A DNA stretch of 22,929 nucleotides from a virus. The stretch covers positions 1-22,929 of IMG/VR virus record IMGVR_UViG_3300045940_000125. One strand, 5' to 3'. A model generated the notes under the pieces. That model made no database searches. It was not told the DNA's origin and worked only from the letters and a program-made list of their open reading frames with translations. Below are positions 2,636 to 22,929 of the stretch, piece after piece. The translations under genes were made by a program, and so were the position numbers. Within the stretch, counting starts at the first letter, position 1. Every line of letters begins with the position of its first letter.

Positions 2636-3111
2636 TTCCGCGCCTTGGCGATCGCTTGTTCGACTCTGGTCAAGCGCTGATCGAGCGCGATCTGATTGGC
2701 GTAGATCGCCTCGGTGAGAATAAGGTGCCCCTCATGCGCAGCGCGGACGTTGGGCTCCATTTCGTCCCAACGCACATGCCGCAAGGTTTCCAGGCCGCGG
2801 AGTAGTTGCGCGTCGGCGCGGCGCTTGTCGTAGCGAGCCAACGTCATATGCTCGCTCGCCGGCGCCAGCCGATAGCCGACGGTGCGGACGTTGTGCAGCC
2901 GGCGTTGTTGTTCCTTGAGCAGCCGCGCTAGAGCGGTCCGGACGATCTGCTGGACGTCGCGCGTGGAATAAGAGCGCTGGGCGGCGGCGCCCAGCGCTTC
3001 GGAGAGCGCGTCATAGGTATAGAGATTGCCCGGCTCGCCGTCGCGGACATGATCAAGAATGACTTGCACGTTGGACCGGCCATCGCGCCGGGTGATCTCG
3101 AAGGCGTTCAT
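2632..3111 (-). CDS. Hypothetical protein, possible winged-helix DNA-binding N-terminus
   Basis: A 159-residue protein, last gene of a three-gene minus-strand operon; its ATG overlaps the stop of the upstream gene (ATGA). Residues about 13-85 look like a small helical domain ending in a beta-hairpin-like NVRTVGYRLAP, reminiscent of the wing of winged-helix proteins. Residues about 90-158 are helical and charged, possibly coiled coil (LDQRLTRVEQAIAKA). I recall phage proteins with a similar layout beside the upstream family, but no function is established. It points opposite to the head genes on both sides, so it is probably expressed separately from them. Regulator or accessory partner of the RAMP-like protein is inference. 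Confidence 0.75.
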   Translation of the reverse strand: MNAFEITRRDGRSNVQVILDHVRDGEPGNLYTYDALSEALGAAAQRSYSTRDVQQIVRTALARLLKEQQRRLHNVRTVGYRLAPASEHMTLARYDKRRADAQLLRGLETLRHVRWDEMEPNVRAAHEGHLILTEAIYANQIALDQRLTRVEQAIAKARN

Positions 3112-3698
3112 TGCGCGATCTCCACTTTGCCGGTGAAGCGGCCGTATCCATTCACGCGGTTGTCACCGATGCCTTCGGTCACACCGGCCATCTCGACGAT
3201 CCGGGCGAGATCCTCGAAATTCAAGCCGGCGTCCTCAATGAAGAGACCGGAGAGGCTCATGGCCCAGGGAAAGAACCGCGGCCGCACGCGCATGATGCGC
3301 TTACCGCCGACCACGACCGGCATGCGGGAGTGAAAATTGTTGTCGGCGAAGAGCTTCTCGATGTCCTTCGATCCCTCGTGTAGCAAGGGGATCTCCAGAT
3401 CGGCGAATGACAGGGCTCGTTCGACGTTCTTGCCTTGCTTGAAGATCCGGGCGGCGTTGATCAGGCACTTGCGGACCTTGGACGTCGGCTGGACGACGAC
3501 CGGCGCCTTGCCGTTCAAGCTCGTGTACAAGCCTCCGAACCACTCCAGGCGCTCGATCAATCGCAGATCCTCATCCGTCTTTTTTCGTTTGGCGGTGATC
3601 GCCTTGATCTGGCGATTCAGGTCGAACTCGGGATCGACCATTCTGGGATTGTGCATCAAGAGGGGGCTGGTGCCAGTCAATGTGAGAGTGATGCGCAT
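3108..3698 (-). CDS. Phage protein of unknown function with RAMP/RRM-like features
   Basis: A 196-residue protein with a start like that of a recurrent phage family: an opening beta strand followed by TGTSPLLMHN. The C-terminal third has an alternating strand-helix pattern (WAMSLSGLFIEDA, NFEDLARIVEMAG) and ends in a glycine-rich segment, GIGDNRVNGYGRF, which resembles the G-rich loop of RAMP (Cas5/6/7-type RRM) RNA-binding proteins. That resemblance is by eye only. A nucleic-acid-binding role is plausible, enzymatic activity is not shown. It is the middle gene of the minus-strand operon, overlapping the downstream gene by 4 bases and the upstream one by 22. A GAGG lies 8 bases before the ATG. 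Confidence 0.8.
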   Translation of the reverse strand: MRITLTLTGTSPLLMHNPRMVDPEFDLNRQIKAITAKRKKTDEDLRLIERLEWFGGLYTSLNGKAPVVVQPTSKVRKCLINAARIFKQGKNVERALSFADLEIPLLHEGSKDIEKLFADNNFHSRMPVVVGGKRIMRVRPRFFPWAMSLSGLFIEDAGLNFEDLARIVEMAGVTEGIGDNRVNGYGRFTGKVEIAQ

Positions 3699-3919
3699 GG
3701 GGACGACCTCGGAAGAGAGACGACGAGACCGTGCCGGATCATGACTTCCCGGTGGCCGACGATCTCGCCGCGGGGTTGGGGCGTGGGTTTCTTGCGGGGC
3801 GGCGCTGGCGGGGGTGTAGGCTCCGCCAGCAGTCGCCGGGCGGCCGCCACGCTAACGCGCAGCGCTCGAGCGAGCTGACGGGCGGTGATCGGGGCCGGAT
3901 CGCCGCGGCGCTGGGTCAC
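3677..3919 (-). CDS. Small HTH-like protein, first gene of the minus-strand operon
   Basis: The long open frame here extends upstream to 4282, but that part is antisense to the gpW-like gene and has poor codon use. I place the start at GTG 3919, preceded by GAGGA with ideal spacing, giving 80 residues. Residues about 11-32 (ITARQLARALRVSVAAARRLL) look like a helix-turn-helix of the kind that picks a start for a short regulator. A Pro/Lys linker (TPPPAPPRKKPTPQPRG) and a short hydrophobic tail follow. It diverges from the gpW-like gene across 72 bases, where its promoter and any operator should lie. Autoregulation of the operon is inference. Confidence 0.6.
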   Translation of the reverse strand: MTQRRGDPAPITARQLARALRVSVAAARRLLAEPTPPPAPPRKKPTPQPRGEIVGHREVMIRHGLVVSLPRSSPCASLSH

Positions 3920-3991
3920 GGAATTCCTCGAAACTGATCTAGAACTCGATTCCTCGGATTCCTTATCACGAACTGCACGGAGAATCCAGCC
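3920..3991. promoter_or_regulatory. Divergent intergenic region with a direct repeat
   Basis: This 72-base gap separates the divergent starts at 3919 (minus) and 3992 (plus). It is more AT-rich than its surroundings and holds two near copies of ATTCCTCG (about 3923-3930 and 3950-3957), one of them carrying the Shine-Dalgarno of the minus gene. GGAG lies about 8 bases before the plus-strand ATG. I expect a promoter for the minus operon here but cannot point to convincing -35 and -10 hexamers. Confidence 0.35.
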
Positions 3992-4213
3992 ATGCCTATC
4001 CGACCTCGCAGCACGCCGACGGAAGACCCCGCCTACGACGCCTTGCTGGCCGCCATCAGCGGGCCGGCCCGGGTGACGATCGACGGCAACACCACGGAGC
4101 TGCCGTCGATCTCGGACCTGATCGCGGCGAACCGGTATCTGCGGGCGCTGCAGGCGAGGGTTTCGAGCCGGGGATTCTCCCTCAGTCAATTTGTTCCGCC
4201 GGGGAGCATCTAG
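3992..4213 (+). CDS. gpW-like head-tail joining protein
   Basis: A 73-residue protein. After residues 13-24 (EDPAYDALLAAI) comes a beta pair, ARVTIDGNTTELPSI, then a helix, SDLIAANRYLRALQARV. This matches the gpW pattern in which a strand reading V-x-[FIY]-[DN]-G-[RN] precedes a helix beginning SI/SL-[DS]-[ED]-L. Lambda gpW sits between terminase A and portal B and completes the head after DNA packaging; here too it lies just before the portal, now separated from the terminase by the minus-strand operon. GGAG 8 bases before ATG supports the start. No membrane segment. Confidence 0.75.
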   Translation: MPIRPRSTPTEDPAYDALLAAISGPARVTIDGNTTELPSISDLIAANRYLRALQARVSSRGFSLSQFVPPGSI

Positions 4214-4243
4214 AGTCCTTAAAAGAAAGTAGTTTCCGATCAC

Positions 4244-5842
4244 TTGAATACCTCGCACATTCAAGTCATCGACGCGTTCCACGAGCGGAACGGCGACCCG
4301 CCACCGCCTTTTCGGGCGAGAAGTGGTGGGCGCGCGCGGGCGGACCGGTTGGGGTCACGGCCGGCCGCCCGCGCAGTTCGTGCCCGGTACGACGCCGCGG
4401 TCACGACCGACGAGAATTTCATGCACTGGGCGAACGCGGACGGCCTTTCGGCCAACGCCGCCAATTCGCCCGAGGTGCGGCGGATTCTGCGCAATCGCGC
4501 TCGTTACGAGTCTGCCAACAACTCGTGGTGCCGGGGGATCGTGCTCACGCTGGCCAACGCCTCGATCTCGACAGGGCCGCGCTTGCAGGTCCAAACGGCC
4601 AACGACGACGCCAATAACCGGATCGAGGCGGCGTTCGGCCAGTGGGCGCAATTGATCCACCTCCCCGAGAAACTGCGGACCATGCGGCAATCGCGGGCCG
4701 TGGACGGCGAGGCGTTCGCCATGCTGGCGACGAATCCCAAGATCGACCACGAGATCACGCTGGACATCAAGTTGATCGAGGCCGACCAGGTCGCCGATCC
4801 CTATCCCCTGGCCGGCCTCGATACGTTCCGGCCGGCGAGCTCGCACGTCGACGGGATCGACTTCGATTCGTTCGGGAACCCCACGACCTACTATCTGCTC
4901 GAGGAGCACCCGGGCGATCTGGCGTATCGTTTCGCGGCCCGCGCCTTGCGCGTCGCGGCCCGGTTCGTCCTGCACTGGTTCCGGCAGGATCGCCCTGGGC
5001 AGGCTCGAGGGATTCCCGACATCACGCCGGCCTTGCCGCTCTTCGCCCAGCTGCGACGCTACACGCTGGCGACGATCGCCGCGGCGGAGACGGCCGCCGA
5101 CCTGGCGGCGGTGCTGGAGACGACGGAGCCGCCGGGCCTCGAGGACGAAGCCGGGGACAGCGAAACATGGGACTCGATCCCGATCCGGCCGCGGCTGATG
5201 GCCCGGTTGCCGGACGGGTACAAGATGAGCCAATTCAAGCCGGAGCAACCGGCCAGCACGTACGAAACGACGGTTCGCCAGATCGTCAACGAGATCATCC
5301 GCTGCTTGGAGATGCCGCTGGCGGTCGGCCTGGGCAACTCATCGGGCTACAACTACGCCTCGGGCCGGCTGGACTTCCAGGTATTCGGCCGGGCGGTGGC
5401 GATCGAGCGAACGGACATCGAGAGCGCGATCCTGCGGCGGATCTTCGAGGCGTGGCTCGATGAGGCGGCCACGCTTCCGGGCTATCTCCCGCCCGGTCTG
5501 CCCGCGCGGAACGTGCCTCATGCCTGGTATTGGCCGGCGGAGCGGCACGTTGACCCGATGAAAGAAGCTCAGGCTCAAGCGGCCCGGCTGATCAATCTGA
5601 CCACGACGTACGCCGATGAGTTCGCCGCCGAGGGTCAGGACTGGAAGACGCAATTCGCCCAGCGCGCCCGGGAGCAAAAAGAGATGATCCGCCTGGGATT
5701 GGTGTCACCCACGCCGCCGGAACAACAACCTCCGCCCGACGATCCCGAGCCCGACCTTGATGAGGACGAGCTCGACAACGACGAGGCCGACGAGGAACCC
5801 GCGCCAGAACCTGCCGAGGAGCTCGCAGACGATGAAGATTGA
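4244..5842 (+). CDS. Phage portal protein, lambda gpB family
   Basis: The portal is the dodecameric ring at the head vertex through which DNA passes. The sequence has family hallmarks: ARYDAA near residue 48, NSPEVRRILRNRARYESANN followed by a hydrophobic stretch, then DGEAFAMLATNP, DIKLIEADQV, and the late ATYETTVRQIVNEIIRCLEMP-like segment (STYETTVRQIVNEI) leading to GNSSGYNYASGRLDF. The last 50 residues are Pro/Asp/Glu-rich. At 532 residues it is normal length. The chosen start is TTG 4244 with no good ribosome site; the first 40 residues are weakly conserved in style, so a start further inside is possible. The 3' end overlaps the next gene by 11 bases. Confidence 0.92.
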   Translation: MNTSHIQVIDAFHERNGDPPPPFRARSGGRARADRLGSRPAARAVRARYDAAVTTDENFMHWANADGLSANAANSPEVRRILRNRARYESANNSWCRGIVLTLANASISTGPRLQVQTANDDANNRIEAAFGQWAQLIHLPEKLRTMRQSRAVDGEAFAMLATNPKIDHEITLDIKLIEADQVADPYPLAGLDTFRPASSHVDGIDFDSFGNPTTYYLLEEHPGDLAYRFAARALRVAARFVLHWFRQDRPGQARGIPDITPALPLFAQLRRYTLATIAAAETAADLAAVLETTEPPGLEDEAGDSETWDSIPIRPRLMARLPDGYKMSQFKPEQPASTYETTVRQIVNEIIRCLEMPLAVGLGNSSGYNYASGRLDFQVFGRAVAIERTDIESAILRRIFEAWLDEAATLPGYLPPGLPARNVPHAWYWPAERHVDPMKEAQAQAARLINLTTTYADEFAAEGQDWKTQFAQRAREQKEMIRLGLVSPTPPEQQPPPDDPEPDLDEDELDNDEADEEPAPEPAEELADDED

Positions 5843-8514: not shown

Positions 8515-10284
8515 GTGGCGCAAGCGACGATTCAGACCCTCAATTACTTGCGACAGGCCTTGGCCTCGGCGCACGCCGTGGGTAGCAACACGCTGATCGT
8601 GTCCGACGGCGCCGCCTGGGGCGCGCCAACGCCGGCGGCGCCCCTGATCGCGACGGCGTTCTATGTCGACGACCCGGGCGTGCCGATCTTCAATGCCCGG
8701 ATCACCGGGCGATCGGGCAACCAGCTCACGATCGGCGCCATCACCTGGGGCGTGGATCTGGCGCTTGGAGTGGGCGACATCGTAGCGCTCACTCCGGCGG
8801 CGGAGCTCTTCGACGAGCTCCGTAACGCCGTCAACTCCAAGACGGACACCGGCCACGATCACGACGATCGCTATTACATTGACGCCGAGGTGGACGCCGC
8901 CCTGGCGGGCAAGGCGAATGTGAGCCATTCGCATCCGGCCGCCGACATCACGAGCGGCGTTCTAGCCCCGGCCCGGCTGGCGACGGGCACGCCGGACGCC
9001 ACCAACTACGTGCGGGGCGATGGCACCTGGGCGGTGGTGCCGCTAGCTGCCCACGATCACGACGAGCGCTACTATCTTGAGGCCGAGGTCGACGCGGCCC
9101 TGGCGGGCAAGGCGAATGTGAGCCACGCGCACGCCGCGGCGGACATCACAAGCGGCGTGATCGCGCCCGCGCGACTGGCGACGGGCACGCCGGACGCCAC
9201 CAACTATGTGCGGGGCGATGGGACCTGGGCGGCGGGACCGGTGGGGCCGCAGGGTGAACAGGGCATTGAGGGGCCGCCGGGGCCGCAGGGCACGCCTGGT
9301 GAAGGCGTGCCAGCCGGCGGCGCGACGGGCCAGGTGCTGGCCAAGGCGTCAGCCACGGACTACGACACGGCGTGGGTCGACCAGACTGGGGGCGGCGGCC
9401 TCGCCGACGGGGACAAGGGCGAGATCACGGTCACCTCGGGGGGCACGGTCTGGACGATCGATGATGGCGTGGTGACGCCGGCGAAACTATCGGGGCTGGT
9501 CCCGATCGCGCAGGGCGGCACGGGCGGCGGCACGGCGGCCGAGGCGCAGACGAACCTTGAGGTGGTGCCGGGAATGCACGTGCAAGCCTGGGACTCGGCG
9601 CTGGACGCCATCGCGGCCTTGCCGGTCGACAAGGGCAATCTGATCGTCGCCTCGGGCGTGGTCTGGGACCGTCTGCCGGTGGGGATGAATGGAGCGGTAT
9701 TGAAAGCGGATTCCTCGAGGGCGACCGGTCTGCGCTGGACGATCGGCGGGAATGTCCTGGTCTGGTTTACCTCACTCACCAGTATCGCCGTCACGAATAC
9801 GACGACGGAATCCAGCTTGATTCCCACGAGCCTCTCGGGAACGAAAACGGTCGAGCCCGCGCAGATGGTGGTGGGGGACATCGTGCGGCTCGAGATGTGC
9901 GGCACGTGCACCACCTTGGCGGCGACCCCCGGCAACGCCACATTCCGGTGGAAGGTGAACGGCGTCACCCTCGCGGCGGCGGGTCCCCACGCTCTACCCA
10001 CGAATAACGCGCTCTACTATTTTCGCGTTTCGGCGGTGTTCATCATTCGCGCCACGGGCGCCGGCGGTAGTGTGGGCGGCTCGATGGAGATTCAATTGCC
10101 CAATGGGGCCTCGAACACGGCGACCTTCCGACATGCGCATTCGTCCGGCGGGCCGGTGTCGGTCGATCTGAGCGGCGGCGCCACGATTGACCTCACGCTC
10201 CAGATGACAGTGGCCGACGCGGGCAACAACTTCACGGCCTCGATGGTTTCGCTCAAACAGGAGCGCGCCTACAACCTGCCATGA
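8515..10284 (+). CDS. Modular phage fibre with duplicated module and collagen-like repeat
   Basis: A 589-residue protein that I read as a trimeric fibre. Residues 1-110 form an N-terminal domain. Two near-identical 60-residue modules follow (DNA 8854-9033 and 9052-9231), each with DHD[DE]RYY, EVDAALAGKANVSH, DITSGV, ARLATGTPDATNYVRGDGTW; such modules are common in tail fibres. Next is a collagen-like stretch of about eight G-x-y triplets (GPVGPQGEQGIEGPPGPQG), a GGATGQVLAKAS-type repeat and a C-terminal Thr/Ser/Val-rich beta domain. Start is GTG 8515 with GAGG about 9 bases upstream. It lies between the decoration protein and the connector genes, so a head fibre or baseplate fibre are both possible. 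Carbohydrate or cell binding is inferred. Confidence 0.85.
   Translation: MAQATIQTLNYLRQALASAHAVGSNTLIVSDGAAWGAPTPAAPLIATAFYVDDPGVPIFNARITGRSGNQLTIGAITWGVDLALGVGDIVALTPAAELFDELRNAVNSKTDTGHDHDDRYYIDAEVDAALAGKANVSHSHPAADITSGVLAPARLATGTPDATNYVRGDGTWAVVPLAAHDHDERYYLEAEVDAALAGKANVSHAHAAADITSGVIAPARLATGTPDATNYVRGDGTWAAGPVGPQGEQGIEGPPGPQGTPGEGVPAGGATGQVLAKASATDYDTAWVDQTGGGGLADGDKGEITVTSGGTVWTIDDGVVTPAKLSGLVPIAQGGTGGGTAAEAQTNLEVVPGMHVQAWDSALDAIAALPVDKGNLIVASGVVWDRLPVGMNGAVLKADSSRATGLRWTIGGNVLVWFTSLTSIAVTNTTTESSLIPTSLSGTKTVEPAQMVVGDIVRLEMCGTCTTLAATPGNATFRWKVNGVTLAAAGPHALPTNNALYYFRVSAVFIIRATGAGGSVGGSMEIQLPNGASNTATFRHAHSSGGPVSVDLSGGATIDLTLQMTVADAGNNFTASMVSLKQERAYNLP
8854..9231 (+). repeat. Tandem 180-bp modules in the fibre gene (198-bp period)
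   Basis: Two 180-base copies at 8854-9033 and 9052-9231, separated by 18 bases, encode the same 60-residue fibre module with only a few amino-acid changes. Nucleotide identity is high over long stretches, for example the segment coding LATGTPDATNYVRGDGTW. Such in-frame repeats can expand or contract by recombination and change fibre length. Confidence 0.9.
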
Positions 10285-11153
10285 ATTTCGCACCACTCAC
10301 GACGCTGGCACTGTCCGAATATCTGCCGACGGCGGTCGAGCCGCCGCCGCTGGAATGCGGCACGGACGTGATGGCGGACGCCGCGCTCTGGCTGGCCGAT
10401 CAGCTGCACGCTCATACGTCGCGGCCGGTGACGTATTGTCGCGGCGCCACGGAAGTCGCCCTCTGCGCCACGGTGGGGCGATCGGCGGCCACCCAGGAGG
10501 ATATCTATGGCGCCTTGCGGGTGATCTATACCGACCGGGATTACTTGATCCCCGCGAGCCAATTGTTGATCGAGGGAGTAGCCACATTGCCGATGGAAGG
10601 GGACCGGATCAAGGAGGATCTGGACGGCGCGATCGTGGAGTTCGCGGTCGTGGCCTCGGAGGGTGAGCCGGCCTGGCGATACAGCGACCCGCACGGGCGA
10701 ATGCTGCGCATCCATACCAAGGAGATCGAGAGCGATAGCACGGTGGCGGCGGCGCCAGCGGCCTGCGGCCTCGATCTGATGGATGGCATGGCGCTCTGGT
10801 TGGCGGATCAGATGAGCGCCCACGCTTCGAGGCCGATCACCTACAGCCAGGGCCAGATCGAGATCAAGCTCTGCGCCACGGTGGGGCGTACGGCCAGTAC
10901 CCAGGACGATATCTACGGCGCCCTGCGGGTGATTTATACCGACCGGGATTACCTGATCCCGACGGCGAGCTTGCGGTATGGCGGCCAGCCGGTGTTGCCG
11001 GCGGCAGGCGATCGTATCCAGGAGGATGTGGCGGGCCGGCTCATGGAGTTCGAGGTCGCGGCCTCGGAGGGCGAGCCGGCGTGGCGCTACAGCGACCCGC
11101 AGCGGCGGATCCTGCGGGTCCATACCAAGCAAATCGAGAGTGCCCTGGCGTGA
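10281..11153 (+). CDS. Probable head-tail adaptor with tandem-duplicated domain
   Basis: A 290-residue protein made of two homologous halves, about residues 32-155 and 168-290. Each has ALWLADQ, A-x-SRP[VI]TY, LCATVGR, T[QE]-x-DIYGALRVIYTDRDYLIP, GDRI-[KQ]-ED, EF-x-V-x-ASEGEPAWRYSDP and LR[IV]HTK. The DRI...E...W form at the end resembles small beta-barrel connector proteins such as lambda gpFII, which joins head and tail, but that match is by eye. Such connectors are normally single-domain, so the duplication is unusual. Its ATG overlaps the fibre stop (ATGA), and it is followed by the tail terminator-like gene with GTGA overlap. Confidence 0.65.
   Translation: MNFAPLTTLALSEYLPTAVEPPPLECGTDVMADAALWLADQLHAHTSRPVTYCRGATEVALCATVGRSAATQEDIYGALRVIYTDRDYLIPASQLLIEGVATLPMEGDRIKEDLDGAIVEFAVVASEGEPAWRYSDPHGRMLRIHTKEIESDSTVAAAPAACGLDLMDGMALWLADQMSAHASRPITYSQGQIEIKLCATVGRTASTQDDIYGALRVIYTDRDYLIPTASLRYGGQPVLPAAGDRIQEDVAGRLMEFEVAASEGEPAWRYSDPQRRILRVHTKQIESALA
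10383..11145 (+). repeat. Intragenic duplication, 408-bp period
   Basis: The two halves of the adaptor-like gene are aligned with a 408-base (136-codon) offset: GCGCTCTGG recurs at 10383 and 10791, and the segment coding DIYGALRVIYTDRDYLIP recurs with the same spacing. The copies have diverged in sequence but keep frame and motif order, so this is an old or functionally constrained in-frame duplication, not an assembly artefact. Confidence 0.85.
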
Positions 11154-16847: not shown

Positions 16848-17578
16848 ACGGGGGGCCCGTCCAGCCAGGCGAGCGCCTCCAGATCCGGGCCTCCACGTGG
16901 AACGCGCTGCTTGATATGGAGCGGCGGATCGCGACGGGCGAGGGCGCCGCTCCCGCGAGCCCTGGGCGGGGGCAGTCCGATCCCACATTGATCCGGGTCA
17001 AGAACACGAGCACGACCGACCTGGGCCGGTACGGCGTCTGCGGTCTGGGCGACACCTTGTGGATGCCGACCGATAATCAAGCCCAATTCCTGGAAATGGT
17101 CGTCTTGAAGGCGATCGCGCCCGCCAGCAACATGCAGCTCACCTTCGGCGTCGCGGTCGAGCCGATCGCGATCGATCGCATCGGCCGCGTGCAGGTCGAA
17201 GGCTCGACCCCGGTCAAGATCAACGTGACGGATGAGGCCAACCAGTGGGCGATCTGCACGGCGAACATGACCCGCCTCGAGACGCGGCCCTACGGCACGG
17301 CGCGGATCCTCTGGAAGGAGGCGGGCACGGGTGAGAGGTGGGGCGTGGTGCGGCTCGGCTTGCTATCCGGGCCGTTCCGGATTCAGTTTCCCGGGGCGGT
17401 GGCTGCAGGCAGCTCGATCGCATGCCAGTACTACGTGATGGGTGGCACGCTTTCGAGCCAAACAGTCGCCATCTTCAATCGTTCCGGCGGCAGCATCGGT
17501 ACGGCGGGCCGGGTCGGCTATGCCTATCTGAACTCCCAGGAGCGCGAGCTGCAGTTCATCCAGGAGTCGTGCCCGTGA
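16844..17578 (+). CDS. Tail-region protein of unknown function
   Basis: A 244-residue protein with ATGA overlap to the preceding gene and GTGA overlap to the following one, hence probably co-produced with both. The N-terminus, PGERLQIRASTWNALLDMERR, is helical; after a Gly/Pro-rich linker come RVKNTSTTDLGRYGVCGLGD and mostly beta-like segments (VVLKAIAPAS, LTFGVAVEPIAI, GRVQVEGSTPVKINV, WAICTANMTRLETRP). The second half repeats short Val/Thr-rich strands. I recognise the layout from phage tail neighbourhoods but not a function. A structural, receptor-end protein is plausible. Confidence 0.8.
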   Translation: MNGGPVQPGERLQIRASTWNALLDMERRIATGEGAAPASPGRGQSDPTLIRVKNTSTTDLGRYGVCGLGDTLWMPTDNQAQFLEMVVLKAIAPASNMQLTFGVAVEPIAIDRIGRVQVEGSTPVKINVTDEANQWAICTANMTRLETRPYGTARILWKEAGTGERWGVVRLGLLSGPFRIQFPGAVAAGSSIACQYYVMGGTLSSQTVAIFNRSGGSIGTAGRVGYAYLNSQERELQFIQESCP

Positions 17579-18216
17579 GCCTGCGGCATTCGCTGGGGTG
17601 TCGGTGTTGCGGGGCCGAGGATTGCCTGGCATGCTTCGGGAGCGGCACCAAGCCGACAACCCTCACACTGGCGCTCAAGGCCTCGGTGGCGCCCAAGGGA
17701 GCCGGCGGCGGCGAACCGATCCCGCCGGAATGTCTCGAGAAAGATCTGACGGTCACGCTCTCGAATGCCAGTACACCCGGGAACTGCACGTACGCCGCAA
17801 CTTCGATGACCCCCGACCGGGAGCCCAGTTTCTACGCTCAGGTCGGTTCGACCGCGGCGTTTCTCTGCGGCTCAATCAGTCAGATTGAGCAATTGCCGCG
17901 GATCCGAAACTTTCACATCTTCGATCTCAGGTGTGAGGGCGGCGCGCCGGTCTTGCGGATCGTGTTACGCTCGATCAACAACCCGACCGGACCCAAGTAT
18001 ACGGACGCCACCTTTCGTTTCTCGATGACCCTGGCGAGCGAGACTCCGATCCTGCTCAATGCCTTCGTGCTGCAAGATGTCGGTTTCACCACCAATAACG
18101 TCCCGGCAACGCCGATCGTCTGGATCACCCGTATTCATCCGGGGTGCACATGCTTGCAGAACCCGAACGTGGCGTCTCTGACGAACCAGCTCCGACCCCA
18201 GACGATCGCGCCGTAG
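17575..18216 (+). CDS. Cysteine-rich N-terminus tail-region protein, unknown function
   Basis: The frame is open from 17338, but the first part is antisense-like overlap with the previous gene. GTG 17575 overlaps that gene's stop (GTGA) and has GGAG 9 bases upstream, so I place the start there: 213 residues. The N-terminus has a tight cysteine cluster, CRCCGAEDCLACFG (pattern C-x-C-C-x4-C-x2-C), which could bind a metal or iron-sulfur cluster, or be disulfide bonded outside the cell. The rest is beta-rich (TLALKASVAP, LTVTLSNAS, FRFSMTLASETPILLNAF) with further cysteines near the end (GCTCLQNP). Phage tail proteins carrying iron-sulfur or metal sites exist, but the match is not established. 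Confidence 0.75.
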   Translation: MSLRHSLGCRCCGAEDCLACFGSGTKPTTLTLALKASVAPKGAGGGEPIPPECLEKDLTVTLSNASTPGNCTYAATSMTPDREPSFYAQVGSTAAFLCGSISQIEQLPRIRNFHIFDLRCEGGAPVLRIVLRSINNPTGPKYTDATFRFSMTLASETPILLNAFVLQDVGFTTNNVPATPIVWITRIHPGCTCLQNPNVASLTNQLRPQTIAP

Positions 18217-18335
18217 TGCTGCTTCTGGTGCGCGACCCCGCGGACCCCCCGCCACGCTCCGCCAAGCCGCGGGTGGCCCTGGGTACACCGCACTGCCTAC
18301 CTTGCCAGGAAAAGCGGCGGGGAACGCAAATCTAA
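18216..18335 (+). CDS. Possible small protein with CxxC motif
   Basis: A 39-residue frame from GTG 18216, touching the previous stop by one base. It contains PHCLPCQEKRR near the C-terminus, a CxxC pair that could bind zinc, and its codon use is reasonable. An ATG at 18150 in the same frame would give a longer protein but overlaps the previous gene by 67 bases. No ribosome site is clear. It is the last plus-strand gene; its stop overlaps by 4 bases the end of the convergent minus-strand cassette. Could also be a non-coding tail. Confidence 0.35.
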   Translation: MLLLVRDPADPPPRSAKPRVALGTPHCLPCQEKRRGTQI

Positions 18336-18544
18336 ACCCCGCTTCCCAGGCTGGCGAGGAATCGGATCACGCCGATCACGACCATCGCGGCCACGCAAAT
18401 CCAGAACAATGTAATGATCCAGCTGGGGATCACGATGCCGAAGGCCTGCGCCGCCACGTATACTGCCGCCACGATGGCGATCAAGATCACAAGCCAAATC
18501 GCCCAACCAGCGATGGTTCGAGGCGGTTGAAATCCCGTGCTCAT
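18332..18544 (-). CDS. Small two-helix membrane protein, holin-like
   Basis: A 70-residue protein from ATG 18544 (ATGA overlap with the gene upstream, GGAG 8 bases before it); the longer open frame to 18730 is antisense-like and not used. It has two strongly hydrophobic segments, about residues 13-33 and 40-64, joined by a short loop, with basic residues near the N-terminus. Class II holins have two membrane helices and this size, so a role as holin in the lysis cassette is reasonable, but there is no family match by eye. It is the last gene of the cassette. Confidence 0.6.
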   Translation of the reverse strand: MSTGFQPPRTIAGWAIWLVILIAIVAAVYVAAQAFGIVIPSWIITLFWICVAAMVVIGVIRFLASLGSGV

Positions 18545-18834
18545 TGGCCGATCTCCAGCTTGGCGGCGATCCGATCCAGGATGGCGCGATTGGATCGAGC
18601 GAGCTCTTCGATGAGGGCGATCTGTTCGCGCTGATACACGGCATGCTGGACGGCGAGCGCCGCCACCGCCAGCAGGATCAAGACGGCCGCGATCGAGACG
18701 GCGTAGTCGTGCCAGTGCCTCAGGAGCCACCGGGCGAAGTCGGCCGGGCCGGGCCGCTCGAGGACGGCCCCGACGCGAATCGGAAAAGCGCCGGCGGCGG
18801 CGGGGGGCCGCTCATGGGAATTTGTCGCAGCCAC
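18541..18834 (-). CDS. Small single-pass membrane protein, possible lysis accessory
   Basis: A 97-residue protein from GTG 18834 with GGAGG 9 bases upstream. The N-terminal 35 residues are polar, then ARWLLRHWHDYAVSIAAV leads into a hydrophobic stretch (about residues 45-65) and a coiled-coil-like C-terminal part (YQREQIALIEELARSNRAILDRIAAKLE). Single-pass protein with a helical outer or inner tail resembles spanin inner-membrane or antiholin components. The first 115 bases overlap the gene upstream in another frame. Function is not established. Confidence 0.6.
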   Translation of the reverse strand: MAATNSHERPPAAAGAFPIRVGAVLERPGPADFARWLLRHWHDYAVSIAAVLILLAVAALAVQHAVYQREQIALIEELARSNRAILDRIAAKLEIGQ

Positions 18835-19055
18835 TGTTCCAGCCTCCCCAGGTAGTCCGCGAGCTCGGCGATCGCCTCGGCGTCGTCCGTTGAGCGCTCG
18901 AGACGCAGCCGCTGGAGCTCATGGGCGCGGGCCGACTTGACCGATTCGAAGTACCCTTGAATCACCGCCAGCACAACTACCGATACGCCGCCCGAGGCCA
19001 GACCCAGGGCCCCGGCGCCGACCGGACTGGCGGCCTGGGCGATGAGGTCGATCAC
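18720..19055 (-). CDS. Small membrane-anchored coiled-coil protein
   Basis: Placed at GTG 19055, which overlaps the peptidase stop as GTGA and has GGGGG 6 bases upstream: 111 residues. A hydrophobic segment at about 10-32 (GALGLASGGVSVVVLAVIQGYF) is followed by a charged helical region (ESVKSARAHELQRLRLERS, then AIAELADYLGRLEQW) and a proline-rich tail. The layout matches an inner-membrane spanin or holin accessory in form only. Its last 115 bases overlap the next gene in a different frame, which may mean the C-terminal tail is unimportant or that the overlap is constrained as in Rz/Rz1 pairs. Confidence 0.6.
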   Translation of the reverse strand: MIDLIAQAASPVGAGALGLASGGVSVVVLAVIQGYFESVKSARAHELQRLRLERSTDDAEAIAELADYLGRLEQWLRQIPMSGPPPPPALFRFASGPSSSGPARPTSPGGS

Positions 19056-19879
19056 GTCAACCCCCGTTCGACGATCGGCGGCACGTCCCGCACGACCACG
19101 GGCGCCGAGCGGTCGGCCGGATCTTCGTGCATGGCGCGGACCGTATAGGCGTCGAAGTGCGTCTGCCCTTCGATGTGGGCGCGGCTGATCCAGAAATACC
19201 CCTGGACGCCCCATGAGCGGCCCCACGAGTTCTGGCACTTGATGAGCCACGCGCCGTCCGCCCTTCGCTTGGCGCCCAAGCCGGCGGTGACGGCGTGGTT
19301 GCCGGGTCCGCGGCAGATCCCGCAACAGCCGTCGACGTCGAGCTGGTCGAACCCTGGCCCCACGCACACGCTGAAATTCATGGTTTGGCGGAGCTGGGTC
19401 GCCGACATCATTTCATCGAAGGAACGGATGGGGGCGCCGATCTCGATGCGGAAGCGGTGGGCGGTGATCGCATCCTGACGGGTGAATCGAGCAGGCGAGA
19501 TCGTTCCGTAAGGCACGCTGTCCTCGGGCACGGTTCCCTGACCTTGCATGAACGTCAGCGCCGCGCCGATGTGGGCGCCTTGATCGACGCCGCCGCAGAG
19601 GTGGGCGTAGGGATACCACGCCGATAGCGCCACGTGGGGCTGGCCGGTCATCCAGCGCTCCCATTCGGCCGAGGTGGCGGCGGCGTGGCCCACGCACGCG
19701 GAAAATGATGTTTGATTTTTGATGTTTACCGGCGAGTCGCTGATCTCGAATTCAATCCATTGCTCGGGTGGTACGAGATAGCCAGCGGCGGCGCCGCAGC
19801 GCACCGGAAAGTTCGCCGGGGTGGGCAACGTGCCCAGGCGTCGGAGCTCGCCCAGGTGGTCGATGAAGTCACTGGGCAT
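19052..19879 (-). CDS. Papain-like (C1A) cysteine peptidase
   Basis: A 275-residue protein with the ordered hallmarks of papain-type peptidases: Gln56 in NIKNQTSFSACVGHAAA (oxyanion hole) and Cys62 (nucleophile), His195 in GPGNHAVTAG, and Asn217 in CQNSWGRSWGVQGYFWI with the usual NSWG. The normal G-S-C-W around the nucleophile is S-A-C-V. No signal peptide or propeptide is visible; the enzyme seems produced in mature form. Extra cysteines lie at about 185-189 (DGCCGICRG). ATG 19879 overlaps the upstream gene by 11 bases. Placement in a cassette with small membrane proteins, where a muralytic endolysin would be expected, suggests a lysis or host-envelope role, but this is inference. Confidence 0.85.
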   Translation of the reverse strand: MPSDFIDHLGELRRLGTLPTPANFPVRCGAAAGYLVPPEQWIEFEISDSPVNIKNQTSFSACVGHAAATSAEWERWMTGQPHVALSAWYPYAHLCGGVDQGAHIGAALTFMQGQGTVPEDSVPYGTISPARFTRQDAITAHRFRIEIGAPIRSFDEMMSATQLRQTMNFSVCVGPGFDQLDVDGCCGICRGPGNHAVTAGLGAKRRADGAWLIKCQNSWGRSWGVQGYFWISRAHIEGQTHFDAYTVRAMHEDPADRSAPVVVRDVPPIVERGLT

Positions 19880-20387
19880 GGGCGACCCCCTTCACGGCGG
19901 CGGCGACGTCCGAGGGCATGGGCGACTCGAGCTCCACGAGGACCTTGCCCTCTTGGTCGACGATCAAGAGACAGGGGTAGCCGAGGCGGTCGGCATGGGT
20001 CCGCAGGTTCAAGGCGTCGACCTGGGCCTGATCGGAGCGCAGGAGGCGCCACGAGATCCGAGCGGCACGGACGGCCGCCCGGACCTCGGGAACGTCCGTG
20101 AGGGCGTACTGGCCGGGAGTGGCCTTCTGGGCGTCCAGGAGATAGTACGCCCAGGTGGAGGGCAGCTCCGGGGCCGGAGTGGGCTTGGGGGCCGGCTGGG
20201 GCTTGGGAGGCGGTTGGGGAGCCGGCGCCGGCCTCGGAGCTGGCGGCGGCGCCGGTTGGGGCGGCACATAGATTGGGATCGTGCCGGGGTCGTAGGGGAC
20301 GATCACGACGGCCGGCGTGGGCGGCGGGGCGTGGCCGCGGCCGAGGAGGCATGCCAGGCAGAGGCAGAGGCGGGGCAAGCGATTCAT
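19869..20387 (-). CDS. Exported proline-rich protein with thioredoxin-like C-terminus
   Basis: A 172-residue protein. Residues 1-20 look like a short signal (Arg3, Arg6, then LCLCLACLLG); Cys13 after LA could be lipidated but the -3 residue is Cys, so the lipobox is non-canonical. Residues about 41-76 are Pro/Ala/Lys repeats such as PKPQPAPKPTPAP, a stiff spacer. Residues about 80-168 look like a small alpha/beta domain ending GYPCLLIVDQEGKVLVELE, resembling the core of thioredoxin-like folds with a cis-Pro-type PC. It lacks CxxC, so redox activity is unlikely. First gene of the minus cassette, it overlaps the peptidase gene by 11 bases. Possibly a spanin-like or periplasmic adaptor. Confidence 0.65.
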   Translation of the reverse strand: MNRLPRLCLCLACLLGRGHAPPPTPAVVIVPYDPGTIPIYVPPQPAPPPAPRPAPAPQPPPKPQPAPKPTPAPELPSTWAYYLLDAQKATPGQYALTDVPEVRAAVRAARISWRLLRSDQAQVDALNLRTHADRLGYPCLLIVDQEGKVLVELESPMPSDVAAAVKGVAHAQ

Positions 20388-20396
20388 GGAATCGCT
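20380..20396 (-). promoter_or_regulatory. Inverted repeat spanning the first start codon of the cassette
   Basis: GCGATTC at 20380-20386 and GAATCGC at 20390-20396 form a 7-base inverted repeat with a 3-base centre that covers the ATG of the cassette's first gene (20387-20385 on the minus strand). No Shine-Dalgarno is visible upstream. Such a hairpin could hide the start or serve as an operator; a chance palindrome is possible. Confidence 0.4.
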
Positions 20397-20474
20397 ATAG
20401 CCGAAAGGGGATGAAGAGTTCTAGACCATCGGCCATCTAGGCCTTGAGGACCAATAGACCACCGGTCAATCTGC

Positions 20475-20509
20475 CCGATGGTTTTCCCATCGGCGCACAG
20501 TGCGCCGAT
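20475..20509. terminator. Two overlapping hairpins between integrase and lysis cassette
   Basis: CCGATGG (20475-20481) pairs with CCATCGG (20487-20493) around TTTTC. ATCGGCGCA (20489-20497) pairs perfectly with TGCGCCGAT (20501-20509) around CAG. The two share 20489-20493, so they are mutually exclusive. The second ends at the integrase stop codon and would be the first structure made by RNA transcribed out of the integrase. No long U run follows on either strand, so intrinsic termination is uncertain; a switch or operator is possible. The rest of 20388-20508 holds no gene I can support. Confidence 0.5.
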
Positions 20510-21456
20510 CATGCCGGCCAGATCTTGCCCGCGATCCGCGCCAGCTCCACGCGCTCGGCGGTCGGATCATGCTCCCGGTAGTAAGACTGCATGCCGGTTC
20601 CGCTATGGCGCAACCAGCGCTTGAGCTCATCGGGCGTCAGGCCCCACGCCCGCGCGTAGGTGCCGATCGTTTTCCGAAAGCTCAGGATCGTGAGACCGTC
20701 GAGACCGGCTCGGCGACCGGCCGCCTTGATGCGATCGAGCGGCTTGGACCCCGGCGGCCCGCCCTGCCAGAAACCCACACCAACCCCCGTGCGATTGGGA
20801 AAGACCCACGGCGTTGCACGGTACGTCCAGGTCCGCTCGAGCCACGCTCGCCAGTCGGATAGGACGGGGGCCAATTTGGGATGGATCCAGAGCGATGCCT
20901 CGGCGCTCGAGGTCTTGAGCGGCCGCGCCGGATGAGGGCGGATGTGAATCAATGACGCCTCGAGCTCAACGTCGATCCAACGTAAGCCCAGACCTTCCAT
21001 CTTGCGCAGACCAGTGAACGCATAAAGGTAGCCCAGAACTCGCGTGCGTCGGTCGAGAAATCGGCCGCCGGCCGCCTCGTGATCGAGCAGATCGAGAAAG
21101 CGCTTGATTTCCTCGGGCGTTCGGTGCCATTCCGTCGCTCCGGGCCGCGGCAACTGATGAATCCAACGCGAGCGCTTGCCGATCGGCGAGACCGTCAGAT
21201 ACTCCGATTCAATGCCGATCATGACCGCGCTCGCGAACGTACGGAGCAAGCTGTCAATAGTCGCTGGCCGCCGGTCGGGATGAGCGGCCAGCCAGCGCGC
21301 GACGATGACAGGTTTGAGGTCGCTCGTTTTCCGCACGCCCTCGAGGGCGCCGAACTCCGCTAGAACCTGGCGCATCTTCTCGCGGGTGGCGGGGCGGCGG
21401 TTCCCGTAGATCTCGAGGACTTCACTCATGAAGCGGTTGTACGAAACCGCCGCCAT
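20509..21456 (-). CDS. int: Tyrosine recombinase, phage integrase
   Basis: A 315-residue site-specific recombinase. The N-terminal half (1-110) fits the SAM-like DNA-binding domain. The catalytic half has Arg151 in FTGLRKMEG, Lys181 in the following PLKTSS, Arg261 in LSFRKTIGT, His284 in WLRHSGTG, and likely nucleophile Tyr293 (SYYREHDP, nine residues after His284). Box II normally reads HxLR; here the residue at the His position is Leu258 and Lys follows Arg. I prefer ATG 21456 because GGGAG stands 8 bases upstream, immediately after the zinc-ribbon stop; ATG 21483 would add 9 residues and overlap that gene. It should use the tRNA-Asp site at 21871. Confidence 0.92.
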   Translation of the reverse strand: MAAVSYNRFMSEVLEIYGNRRPATREKMRQVLAEFGALEGVRKTSDLKPVIVARWLAAHPDRRPATIDSLLRTFASAVMIGIESEYLTVSPIGKRSRWIHQLPRPGATEWHRTPEEIKRFLDLLDHEAAGGRFLDRRTRVLGYLYAFTGLRKMEGLGLRWIDVELEASLIHIRPHPARPLKTSSAEASLWIHPKLAPVLSDWRAWLERTWTYRATPWVFPNRTGVGVGFWQGGPPGSKPLDRIKAAGRRAGLDGLTILSFRKTIGTYARAWGLTPDELKRWLRHSGTGMQSYYREHDPTAERVELARIAGKIWPA

Positions 21457-21461
21457 CTCAA

Positions 21462-21791
21462 CTACTCCCGGTGAAACCAACATACAACATTCCCGGCAGA
21501 CACGAGCTTAGGCCCCGTATCCGTATAGGTCTCAAACATTTCATCATGCGACAACATCCTGGTATTGCCCGATGGGTGGATCCGCGCGGCGCCGCATACC
21601 TCGCAGCGCACCCGCTTGGCTCCCTTGGTCCGCGATGGCGCGCTCCGTGGAACCCACCCGCCGGCACCAACATCCCACTTCGCCGCGATCACCGCGCGGC
21701 CGCAAAATTGGCAGATCCTTGGCACCACGCTACCTCGCGTATTTCGCCAGTCAATGATCGCGTTACAACCTGTGCATATCGCCGTCGGCAT
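21462..21791 (-). CDS. Zinc-ribbon-like protein upstream of integrase
   Basis: A 109-residue protein from ATG 21791, chosen because GGGAGGA stands 5 bases upstream; the open frame extends to 21908 but that part translates tRNA-Asp sequence. It has CTGCN near residue 6 and CQFCG near 30, forming a four-cysteine zinc-ribbon spacing, and CEVCG near 67 with a possible later partner at the C-terminus. The middle is basic. It is the first gene after the attachment site and shares a transcript direction with the integrase. A DNA-binding or integration-accessory (excisionase) role is possible by position, not shown. Confidence 0.65.
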   Translation of the reverse strand: MPTAICTGCNAIIDWRNTRGSVVPRICQFCGRAVIAAKWDVGAGGWVPRSAPSRTKGAKRVRCEVCGAARIHPSGNTRMLSHDEMFETYTDTGPKLVSAGNVVCWFHRE

Positions 21792-21850
21792 GGCTCCTCC
21801 CTTAATGCATCGGCCACCACGGTCAGCGTGTCTCGCCCGATGTTGCGAAA

Positions 21851-21895
21851 AACCCGCAACCAACCTATCGCCTGTCACGCCGGAGGTTGCGGGTT
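21851..21895. repeat. 11-bp inverted repeat across the attachment core
   Basis: AACCCGCAACC (21851-21861) and GGTTGCGGGTT (21885-21895) are perfect inverted repeats centred at 21873, in the tRNA anticodon loop. The right arm is part of the tRNA fragment and the left arm is phage DNA. A related GTTGCG/CGCAAC hairpin lies at 21842-21860. This could be the pair of integrase core sites, although the 23-base spacing is longer than usual. Confidence 0.45.
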
Positions 21896-21913
21896 CGAGC
21901 CCCGTCATCCTCG
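21871..21913 (+). other. attachment site: 3' fragment of a tRNA-Asp(GUC) gene
   Basis: The sequence reads as the 3' half of a tRNA: anticodon loop CTGTCAC with GTC (21872-21878), 3' anticodon stem GCCGG (21879-21883), variable AGGTT, T arm GCGGG-TTCGAGC-CCCGT (21889-21905) and acceptor strand CATCCTC plus discriminator G (21906-21913). CCA is not encoded. Upstream of the anticodon loop the sequence does not pair as a tRNA (ATCGC instead of CCGGC, no GAGGATG within 75 bases), so the 5' half is missing. An integrase lies beside it. This is the footprint of integration in or near a tRNA-Asp gene. Confidence 0.8.
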
Positions 21914-21933
21914 ACTCGGTCGCGCCCGGGGGA

Positions 21934-21954
21934 CGAATGGTGTATAATCATTCG
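21934..21954. promoter_or_regulatory. TATAAT inside a 6-bp inverted repeat
   Basis: A consensus -10 hexamer TATAAT (21943-21948) lies between CGAATG (21934-21939) and CATTCG (21949-21954). No -35 element is convincing upstream (sequence is CGCGCCC). If active, it would start an RNA near 21955 that ends at the hairpin below, roughly 65 bases long. The symmetry could be an operator. Confidence 0.3.
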
Positions 21955-21975
21955 CTTCATCGGGCCGATCTCCGG

Positions 21976-22023
21976 GCCGGGCGGGGGGTATCACTTGTCA
22001 GGCTGTCCCTCGCCCGGCTTTTT
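21976..22023 (+). terminator. Structured repeat copy 1 with terminator hairpin
   Basis: GCCGGGCG (21976-21983) pairs with CGCCCGGC (22011-22018), extendable by GGGG with the UCCC-U on the other side, and is followed by TTTTT (22019-22023). The element begins with GGGCCGATCTCCGGGCC at 21962 and continues with CGTTGGCC after the T run; its upstream TCGGTCGCGCCC at 21916 is also shared with copy 2. Confidence 0.7.
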
Positions 22024-22076
22024 CGTTGGCCGGGCGTCACGCGGGAGCTGAAATGAAGTAACTGAAATCGGTCGCG

Positions 22077-22096
22077 CCCCGAGGTAGTCCTCGGGG
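22077..22096. other. 8-bp hairpin upstream of repeat copy 2
   Basis: CCCCGAGG (22077-22084) and CCTCGGGG (22089-22096) are a perfect inverted repeat around TAGT, directly before the second structured repeat. It replaces the TATAAT-containing stretch found at this place in copy 1. A structured RNA domain or a remnant of the first copy are possibilities. Confidence 0.45.
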
Positions 22097-22107
22097 CCGA
22101 TCTCCGG

Positions 22108-22157
22108 GCCGGGCGGGGGGTCTCACTTTCTCAGGGGTGTCCCTCGCCCGGCTTTTT
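22108..22157 (+). terminator. Structured repeat copy 2 with terminator hairpin
   Basis: GCCGGGCG (22108-22115) pairs with CGCCCGGC (22145-22152), followed by TTTTT (22153-22157). The conserved loop has GGGGGGTCTCACTTTCTCAG (loop start) and a GGGTGTCCC end. The same flanks as copy 1 are present: GGGCCGATCTCCGGG before and CGTTGGCC after. Confidence 0.7.
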
Positions 22158-22187
22158 CGTTGGCCAGACGCGGACCCCAATTGCCCC

Positions 22188-22412
22188 TCAGGCAACCTCG
22201 AGCAGCTTCATACGATCCGACGTCGTCAAGGCGTCCATCGTCCCTGTGACTTCGGCAACCTTGTAACGCCGCCGCTCCGCCTCCAGCTTGTGAGTGCGCT
22301 CCTGCAATGCCAGATTCGCCCGCAGCGCGTCGTTGAGATTGCGCTGAGCCGCGCTCAGCTCTTGTTCAACCTCAGCTTCACCCGCCCGCTCCATTGCCTT
22401 CTCGATGATCAT
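22188..22412 (-). CDS. Small coiled-coil protein, unknown function
   Basis: A 74-residue protein from ATG 22412, chosen because AGAGGCGGA lies a short distance upstream; the frame continues to 22454. It is almost entirely helical and charged, with a heptad-like core (AEVEQELSAAQRNLNDALRANLALQERTHKLEAERRR). No motif identifies it. The start overlaps the stop of the small frame upstream as ATGA, suggesting an operon. Codon use is like that of the region. It lies outside the tRNA footprint and may be host-derived. Confidence 0.55.
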   Translation of the reverse strand: MIIEKAMERAGEAEVEQELSAAQRNLNDALRANLALQERTHKLEAERRRYKVAEVTGTMDALTTSDRMKLLEVA

Positions 22413-22540
22413 CGTCCATCCGCCTCTCGAAGAAGTGCCGTCAATGATGAGCATGCCGAGATCAGACGCCTGATCATTCCTGGATGCTCCTCCTTCGTTG
22501 CAACACGAGCAGCCTGCTTCTTGTTCGGGATGCGCGTCAA
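22409..22540 (-). CDS. Possible small protein upstream of the coiled-coil gene
   Basis: A 43-residue frame with TTG 22540 as a possible start; the frame stays open upstream to about 22640 without a clear start. It is basic (RIPNKKQAARVATKEEH) and ends LLREADGR before ATGA overlap with the next gene. The TTG also overlaps the stop of a short upstream frame. Weak ribosome site. Could be a decayed gene. Confidence 0.35.
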   Translation of the reverse strand: MTRIPNKKQAARVATKEEHPGMIRRLISACSSLTALLREADGR

Positions 22541-22613
22541 CTGACAGTGCGGATCTCCTGTTCCAGCATCCGCGGAGAACTGCGGCGGCGGTTCGGCTTT
22601 GGGCCGTCTCCGG

Positions 22614-22659
22614 GCCGGGTGGGGGGTGTCACTGTCAGGGGTGTCCCTCGCCCGGCTTT
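22614..22659 (+). terminator. Structured repeat copy 3 with terminator hairpin
   Basis: GCCGGGTG (22614-22621) pairs with CGCCCGGC (22649-22656), keeping pairing through a G-U at the changed base. A TTTCTTTG run follows. The loop repeats GGTGTCACTGTCAGGGGTGT. The flank GGGCCGTCTCCGGGCC (22601) has lost one A relative to the other copies. Compensated change supports RNA structure. Confidence 0.6.
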
Positions 22660-22696
22660 CTTTGTTTGCCGGACGACGGACGGTCGTAAGTCAATC

Positions 22697-22731
22697 GGGG
22701 ACGGCAAGCGGTAGTAAACATTGCTGTCCCC
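22697..22731. terminator. 11-bp hairpin beyond the partial minus-strand gene
   Basis: GGGGACGGCAA (22697-22707) and TTGCTGTCCCC (22721-22731) pair with one G-U, around a 13-base loop. It stands 13 bases beyond the stop of the minus-strand gene. On that strand no U run follows, so termination is only possible. Confidence 0.45.
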
Positions 22732-22743
22732 GGCCCGCTCACT

Positions 22744-22929
22744 TCAATCGGCCAGATCACCGAGCGAAGGCAAGCCCTTCTTTTTGGTGTTGACCTTGAA
22801 GTTGTTGACGCGGGTTCCCTCCAAGTGGGCATGCCAAGCCTTGGCGCACTTGGCGTAGATATCGCGGGCGCTGACTGATTCCTTCTCATCCTTGATCCGG
22901 AAAAGTTCGCCGGCCAGGTCCGACGCGGC
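22744..22929 (-). CDS. C-terminal end of an unidentified gene (cut by window edge)
   Basis: The minus strand is open from the right edge to TGA at 22746-22744, giving 61 residues, with good codon use throughout. The end reads EKESVSARDIYAKCAKAWH, then EGTRVNNFKVNTKKKGLPSLGDLAD, helical then basic. I do not recognise the family. It reads toward the repeats and ends near a hairpin. The 5' part lies beyond the window. It probably belongs to the host side of the attachment site. Confidence 0.6.
   Translation of the reverse strand, partial: AASDLAGELFRIKDEKESVSARDIYAKCAKAWHAHLEGTRVNNFKVNTKKKGLPSLGDLAD

Follow-up and report, generated by a model that had tools for sequence, protein, structure and literature searches.

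A candidate phage lysis cassette that pairs a papain-family peptidase with a thioredoxin-fold partner

Accounts of phage lysis usually take peptidoglycan as the target. The locus considered here raises the question of whether some phages leave their hosts by another chemistry, because the position where a muralytic enzyme might be sought is occupied by a predicted cysteine peptidase. The locus lies in the window, a stretch of 22,929 bases that makes up the whole of its IMG/VR record. The best single reading of the evidence, at about even confidence, is that the peptidase serves lysis; roles in peptidoglycan cleavage, envelope remodelling, entry and host takeover are live rivals, and each is weighed below beside the data that bear on it.

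A predicted papain-family peptidase in a five-gene cassette

Five minus-strand ORFs fill positions 20387-18332 and encode, in order, an exported proline-rich protein, a C1A peptidase and three small membrane proteins (Table 1), with successive genes overlapping by 11, 10, 115 and 4 bp. The first-pass annotation had proposed a five-gene cassette in this interval, including a peptidase with intact Gln56, Cys62, His195 and Asn217 followed by three small membrane proteins in overlapping order; all five ORFs and the expected transmembrane (TM) segments are present and the four residues were named correctly.

Table 1. Coordinates of the cassette genes and their immediate neighbours in the window
Feature	Position	Strand	Details and evidence
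Exported Pro-rich protein ending in a thioredoxin-fold domain	19869..20387	-	172 aa; ORF, AlphaFold2, Foldseek, HMM
Predicted C1A papain-family (xylellain-type) cysteine peptidase	19052..19879	-	275 aa; PF00112, alignments, fold, 46 phage clusters
Small protein, one hydrophobic segment and charged helical tail	18720..19061	-	113 aa, 1 TM, GTG start; homologues in L006 and L004
Single-TM protein, C-terminal coiled-coil-like tail, overlapping frame	18541..18834	-	97 aa, GTG start; L006 homologue
Two-TM protein, candidate holin	18332..18544	-	70 aa; conserved in related phages, weak PHROG match
Tyrosine integrase, directly upstream of cassette, same strand (context)	20509..21456	-	PF00589, ORF
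Last gene of structural array, converging on cassette (context)	17569..18216	+	ORF

Against PF00112 (Peptidase_C1) the product of the second gene scored 35.2 bits (curated cut-off 20.7), and 14 of 17 family members matched the same profile at E<=0.01. In an alignment of 20 homologues Gln56, Cys62 and His195 are invariant, while Asn217 is kept in the window, in close relatives and in most homologues and is substituted in a few distant ones. The AlphaFold2 model is a papain fold (mean pLDDT 88, pTM 0.88) with xylellain (3ois) as its closest Foldseek match (E 1.4e-13, TM 0.70) and papain-family enzymes as the other matches, and a profile search likewise returned xylellain as the best solved-structure match (E 1.2e-26). 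A chance match is excluded because peptidase homologues are encoded at 56 phage loci, which form 46 clusters at 90% identity. Profile, alignment and model together confirm the predicted assignment to the C1A papain family. Neither a signal peptide nor an I29 propeptide was found in the peptidase.

Homologues were recovered only among uncultivated phage sequences from environmental DNA. Two motif scans of bacterial genome contigs returned none, so the family looks restricted to phages or else is too diverged for exact-motif scans. In one phage (L017:4651-6555; IMGVR 3300002460_000021) the C1 peptidase is split exactly before the catalytic Cys by an intein (QGSESS-intein-CTGQAS) that matched Pfam Intein_splicing at 39.6 bits and also gave a LAGLIDADG-like match, and peptidase activity at that locus would therefore depend on splicing.

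A thioredoxin-fold partner and three small membrane proteins

The gene upstream of the peptidase had been annotated simply as encoding an exported proline-rich protein. The N-terminal hydrophobic segment and Pro-rich linker of the 172-aa product bear this out, but the description was incomplete, as residues 79-172 form a C-terminal thioredoxin-fold domain that lacks CxxC. AlphaFold2 modelled this domain with block pLDDT values of 96-98 over most of residues 81-170 and with elements in the order beta-alpha-beta-alpha-beta-beta-alpha, and its best Foldseek match is DsbD-gamma (E 7.8e-5). The CxxC redox motif is absent from the domain in 20 of 20 aligned members, and in the window and L006 proteins CxxC is confined to the N-terminal region.

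An HMM built from 20 of these thioredoxin-like (Trx-like) proteins was run on the ORFs upstream of the 56 C1 loci, about half of which lie outside the building set. It matched directly upstream of the peptidase gene in 45 of the 46 clusters, and in 46 of 46 once L017 is counted, where the miss is an artefact of the peptidase intein (the Trx-like gene lies at 3894-4649 and was included in the alignment). The gene usually overlaps that of the peptidase by a few bases, and its product is exported or membrane-anchored in nearly all loci. The pair occurs in genomes of 25-595 kb, including 25-kb siphophages and phages of 187, 341 and 595 kb, and the presence of the match in nearly every cluster indicates that the two genes travel together from siphophages to huge phages. 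Judged by this conserved adjacency, the Trx-like protein is the predicted obligate upstream partner of the peptidase and its key partner.

Such a partner could be an inhibitor, and an enzyme with no propeptide could act in the reducing cytoplasm. Both points would suit a protease for host takeover inside the cell, or a toxin-like effector, that has no connection with the envelope and is inhibited or tethered by the Trx-like protein. The second also counts against lysis, since a papain that lacks a propeptide would need some restraint to stay inactive in the cytoplasm. However, the partner is exported or anchored almost throughout and the cassette neighbours are membrane proteins, and a takeover role is accordingly judged very unlikely. 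The same features, a Sec-exported or TM-anchored obligate partner and accompanying membrane proteins, suit the infected cell better than the virion, and both the window and G015 encode head-maturation proteases of their own; a virion-associated protease that opens a protein layer during entry, or that matures the particle, is thus distinctly improbable, although the cassette adjoins tail-fibre genes in L033, L035, L036 and L037.

Redox-type thioredoxins with CxxC adjoin the C1 peptidase in two further phages (L028:6653-7336 and L035:8910-9416), and the peptidase at L018:3718-4857 has a C-terminal extension with an FCAWC motif. These observations suggest that redox chemistry, namely disulphide reduction, may belong to the system.

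The small membrane proteins are less widely shared. The 113-aa protein (P0003) has homologues next to C1 in L006 (E 2.5e-33) and L004 (E 2.9e-7), and the 97-aa protein (P0004) has a clear homologue in L006 (E 1.4e-25) and a marginal one in L004. The 70-aa two-TM protein (P0005) is 78-89% identical in three related phages, and a scan with it returned four loci, all in C1-bearing phages. More distant C1 phages (L030, G014 and G015) carry TM proteins of comparable size next to the peptidase, and enrichment of small TM proteins near C1 was found in G015 (p 0.003) and G014 (p 0.012), was borderline in G002 (p 0.07) and was not significant in G001 (p 0.76). The survey of co-conservation proposed with the original annotation therefore gave a strong result for the Trx-like/C1 pair and a moderate one for the three membrane proteins, whose retention among close relatives only counts against a lysis function for the cassette.

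A single ancestry for these three proteins in every C1 phage was considered and set aside, homology being detectable among close relatives only. Holin or spanin identities sought through PHROGs gave only weak matches; that of the two-TM protein to holins was phrog_2879 at E 0.0029. No clear lipobox was found in the window proteins, and the single-TM proteins have helical tails encoded in overlapping frames. The 97-aa protein would be spanin- or holin-like in form only, and the membrane-protein part of the cassette as a whole appears to be recognised by form, not by family.

Wall hydrolases, genomic position and timing

Contig L120 is identical to the window at both ends (100% over 508 bp and 9,813 bp) and contains a missing 3,928 bp, and these overlaps close the genome of the window phage as a circle of ~26.9 kb. 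The missing 3.9-kb stretch (L120:509-4436) encodes a ParB/KorB-like protein and other small genes of regulatory or replication type. No peptidoglycan hydrolase was found by Pfam scans in the predicted genes of the window or in this gap, which extends to the remaining window the earlier claim that the cassette holds no glycosidase, amidase or wall-binding domain. Four relatives appear complete or near-complete, with exact 127-bp end repeats in G002, G003 and G015 and a 205-bp repeat at 99.5% in G001, as in complete circular contigs; in all four, Peptidase_C1 is the sole Pfam candidate for a lytic enzyme. The first-pass annotation had held that a conventional endolysin elsewhere would refute its proposal, and none is Pfam-detectable in the closed genome or in these relatives.

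Whole-record family searches in which positive controls matched found Amidase_2, Phage_lysozyme and SLT in 0 of 48 C1-bearing phage records, M15_4 was found in 0 of 19, NlpC/P60 (PF00877) in 0 of 19 with its controls matched, and CHAP was absent from Pfam scans of the complete genomes. The GH108 search carries no weight, since its controls gave no match. An M23 domain occurs only in the 595-kb LR756511, where it counts against the peptidase as lysis enzyme, and G007 gave a sub-threshold match. As a positive control, Amidase_2 was detected adjoining a 3TM holin in L122, a phage without C1 that came to light through a distantly similar terminase. A very divergent wall hydrolase outside Pfam may conceivably be present in these genomes.

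Papain-like folds of other families act on peptidoglycan. The C1A enzyme might therefore be a lysis enzyme repurposed as a peptidoglycan-peptide endopeptidase, like the papain-like CHAP and NlpC/P60 folds, and the genomic evidence for lysis by the peptidase would support this equally. Planctomycetes, moreover, possess peptidoglycan that is sensitive to lysozyme (PMC4432640), and a phage of such a host would still benefit from a peptidoglycan hydrolase. On the other hand, the neighbours of the enzyme in sequence and fold are true proteases (xylellain and cathepsins), and neither NlpC/P60, in the 19 records searched, nor a wall-binding domain was found, so that action on peptidoglycan is considered unlikely.

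Position offers a further guide. Lambda keeps its lysis genes upstream of the terminase. The terS-terL-portal array of G001 and G002 begins with the Trx-like and C1 genes, which stand at the start of the late operon and are divergent from the integrase, and the two-TM protein lies between terL and portal. The peptidase of L028 lies upstream of a terL homologous to the terminase of the window, and in G014 and G015 the cassette is followed by tail-fibre genes and then by terminase and head genes, all on the same strand. The arrangement differs in the window and G003, where the cassette comes after the integrase, on its strand, and is convergent with the tail genes, and this placement means that the window alone cannot reveal timing. 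No sigma-70-like promoter was found in 18100-22900, and promoter and terminator evidence on timing, also considered, was uninformative. Late placement would thus be read from the relatives, where the genes lie upstream of terminase; the window cassette faces away from the structural genes. G001 and G002 share the C1, Trx-like and two-TM genes with the window and have terminases, portals and capsids of a different type, indicating a portable module.

The integrase-side position would also fit lysogenic expression, which weighs against lysis. It is a typical site of lysogenic-conversion genes, and in the window and G003 it favours envelope remodelling or superinfection exclusion, a form of lysogenic conversion or takeover in which the Trx-like protein and peptidase alter surface proteins without lysis. 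Set against such a role are the lack of a signal peptide on the peptidase, its retention in huge phages and in complete genomes with no other detectable wall hydrolase, and its place at the head of the late operon, divergent from the integrase, in G001 and G002; remodelling is accordingly regarded as doubtful.

Several other features of the window were recorded. On the strand opposite to the terminase and portal genes, and lying between them, 3108-3698 (-) encodes a 196-aa protein in which a C-terminal GIGDNRVNGYGRF segment is reminiscent of the glycine-rich loop in RAMP-type proteins. Low-complexity degenerate repeats (CCTTGCC-like) follow terL at 2454-2630, and similar low-complexity ORFs are found at the G002 ends. 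One head-tail gene contains an internal duplication (10461-10732 and 10869-11140; 79% identity, 275 bp) and a collagen-like gene contains a direct repeat (8853-9034 and 9051-9232), while a GC-rich repeat (TCTCCGGGCCGGGYGGGGGG...CCCTCGCCCGGCTTT) is present in three copies (21969-22021, 22101-22153 and 22607-22659) in the intergenic and regulatory region.

A possible proteolytic route of exit and its hosts

The explanation favoured, by slightly better than an even chance, is a phage lysis cassette in which the papain-family peptidase replaces a peptidoglycan hydrolase as the envelope-degrading enzyme. Its established elements are the genes with their order and overlaps, the catalytic residues, both predicted folds, the conservation of the pair, the lack of Pfam-detectable wall hydrolases and the pre-terminase position in relatives; what we infer is lysis, together with the timing, the function of the holin, the substrate and the host. 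A peptidase with no signal peptide beside an exported or anchored Trx-like protein would be arranged as expected if a holin released the enzyme to a partner already waiting in the periplasm. The leaderless peptidase would accumulate in the cytoplasm until the two-TM protein, acting as holin, made a timed opening in the inner membrane. The Trx-like protein, waiting in the periplasm or anchored in the membrane, would then dock or fold the released enzyme, whose targets would be structural proteins of the envelope; the pair of single-TM proteins would assist disruption of the inner and outer membranes. The original proposal of a lysis cassette with the peptidase as its enzyme is in this sense partly supported.

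The window phage seems to share with dozens of unrelated phages a papain-like peptidase and a membrane-bound partner where a wall-dissolving enzyme would be usual, and this suggests that it leaves its host by digestion of a protein-rich envelope. A more tentative extension, held at somewhat less than even confidence, is that proteolytic exit is widespread and not previously described, with a membrane-targeted Trx-fold protein and a papain-family peptidase replacing the endolysin in phages whose hosts have an envelope of cross-linked protein, and with exported CxxC thioredoxins in some relatives helping to reduce the disulphides of the wall.

If the host is a planctomycete, published accounts give the favoured reading some context: the envelopes of these bacteria are reported to consist of protein with much Pro and Cys, held by disulphides (PMC3035269), and in P. 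limnophila most peptidoglycan-synthesis genes are dispensable while a Cys-rich YTV protein belongs to the essential set (PMC10632474). A host akin to Planctomycetota, its wall rich in protein and linked by disulphides, is plausible on circumstantial evidence, the clues being PEP-CTERM proteins in G001 and exported c-type-cytochrome-like proteins in huge phages. Exported phage proteins with PEP-CTERM sorting tails lie at L002:13583-14185 and L040:11246-11524, one of them between terL and the two-TM protein, and such tails imply a host with exosortase. The cytochrome-like proteins, with CxxCH, are encoded a few genes downstream of the peptidase (L008:11362-12225, L009:11182-12063 and L010:11182-12093). 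Searches for a host by plasmid and phage similarity with terminase, integrase, cytochrome-like and C1 queries were uninformative, returning only distant Leptospira C1 peptidases, and the available portions of the huge-phage paper and the Lac Pavin paper give no host for LR756511.

Compared with known systems, the cassette shares with the lambda type (holin, endolysin and Rz/Rz1 spanins) its small TM proteins, leaderless enzyme and overlapping genes, and in relatives the pre-terminase site, but it has a peptidase and an exported Trx-like protein in place of any detectable muralytic enzyme, and its holin and spanins are candidates only. CHAP and NlpC/P60 endolysins and tail lysins have the papain-like catalytic fold in common with the peptidase, whereas their Pfam families differ. 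L122 is also a tailed phage with adjacent enzyme and holin genes, but its enzyme is a conventional amidase and it has no C1 or Trx-like gene. Xylellain resembles the phage peptidase in profile and fold and likewise has no visible I29 propeptide; identity to it is only 17%, however, and the phage proteins sit in cassettes with an exported Trx-fold partner.

The system had been put forward as undescribed, which does not hold for the gene type itself: a 2023 survey reported xylellain-type C1A peptidases in Myoviridae and Siphoviridae as horizontal acquisitions (PMC10380794), the same enzyme type in tailed phages, and the accessible part of that survey gives no genomic context, partner or function for them. 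The proposed role and the partner are new. A literature search that left out preprints and most subscription journals returned no account of phage lysis by papain-family enzymes, of the cassette or its Trx-like partner, or of the absence of any further detectable wall hydrolase.

If the favoured explanation is true across phages of 25 to 595 kb, a peptidase with a dedicated membrane partner would constitute a distinct lysis chemistry. Furthermore, if the hosts are planctomycetes, it would bear on the old question of whether load is carried by the protein-rich, disulphide-linked envelope or by peptidoglycan, a question that the cassette makes testable with single genes.
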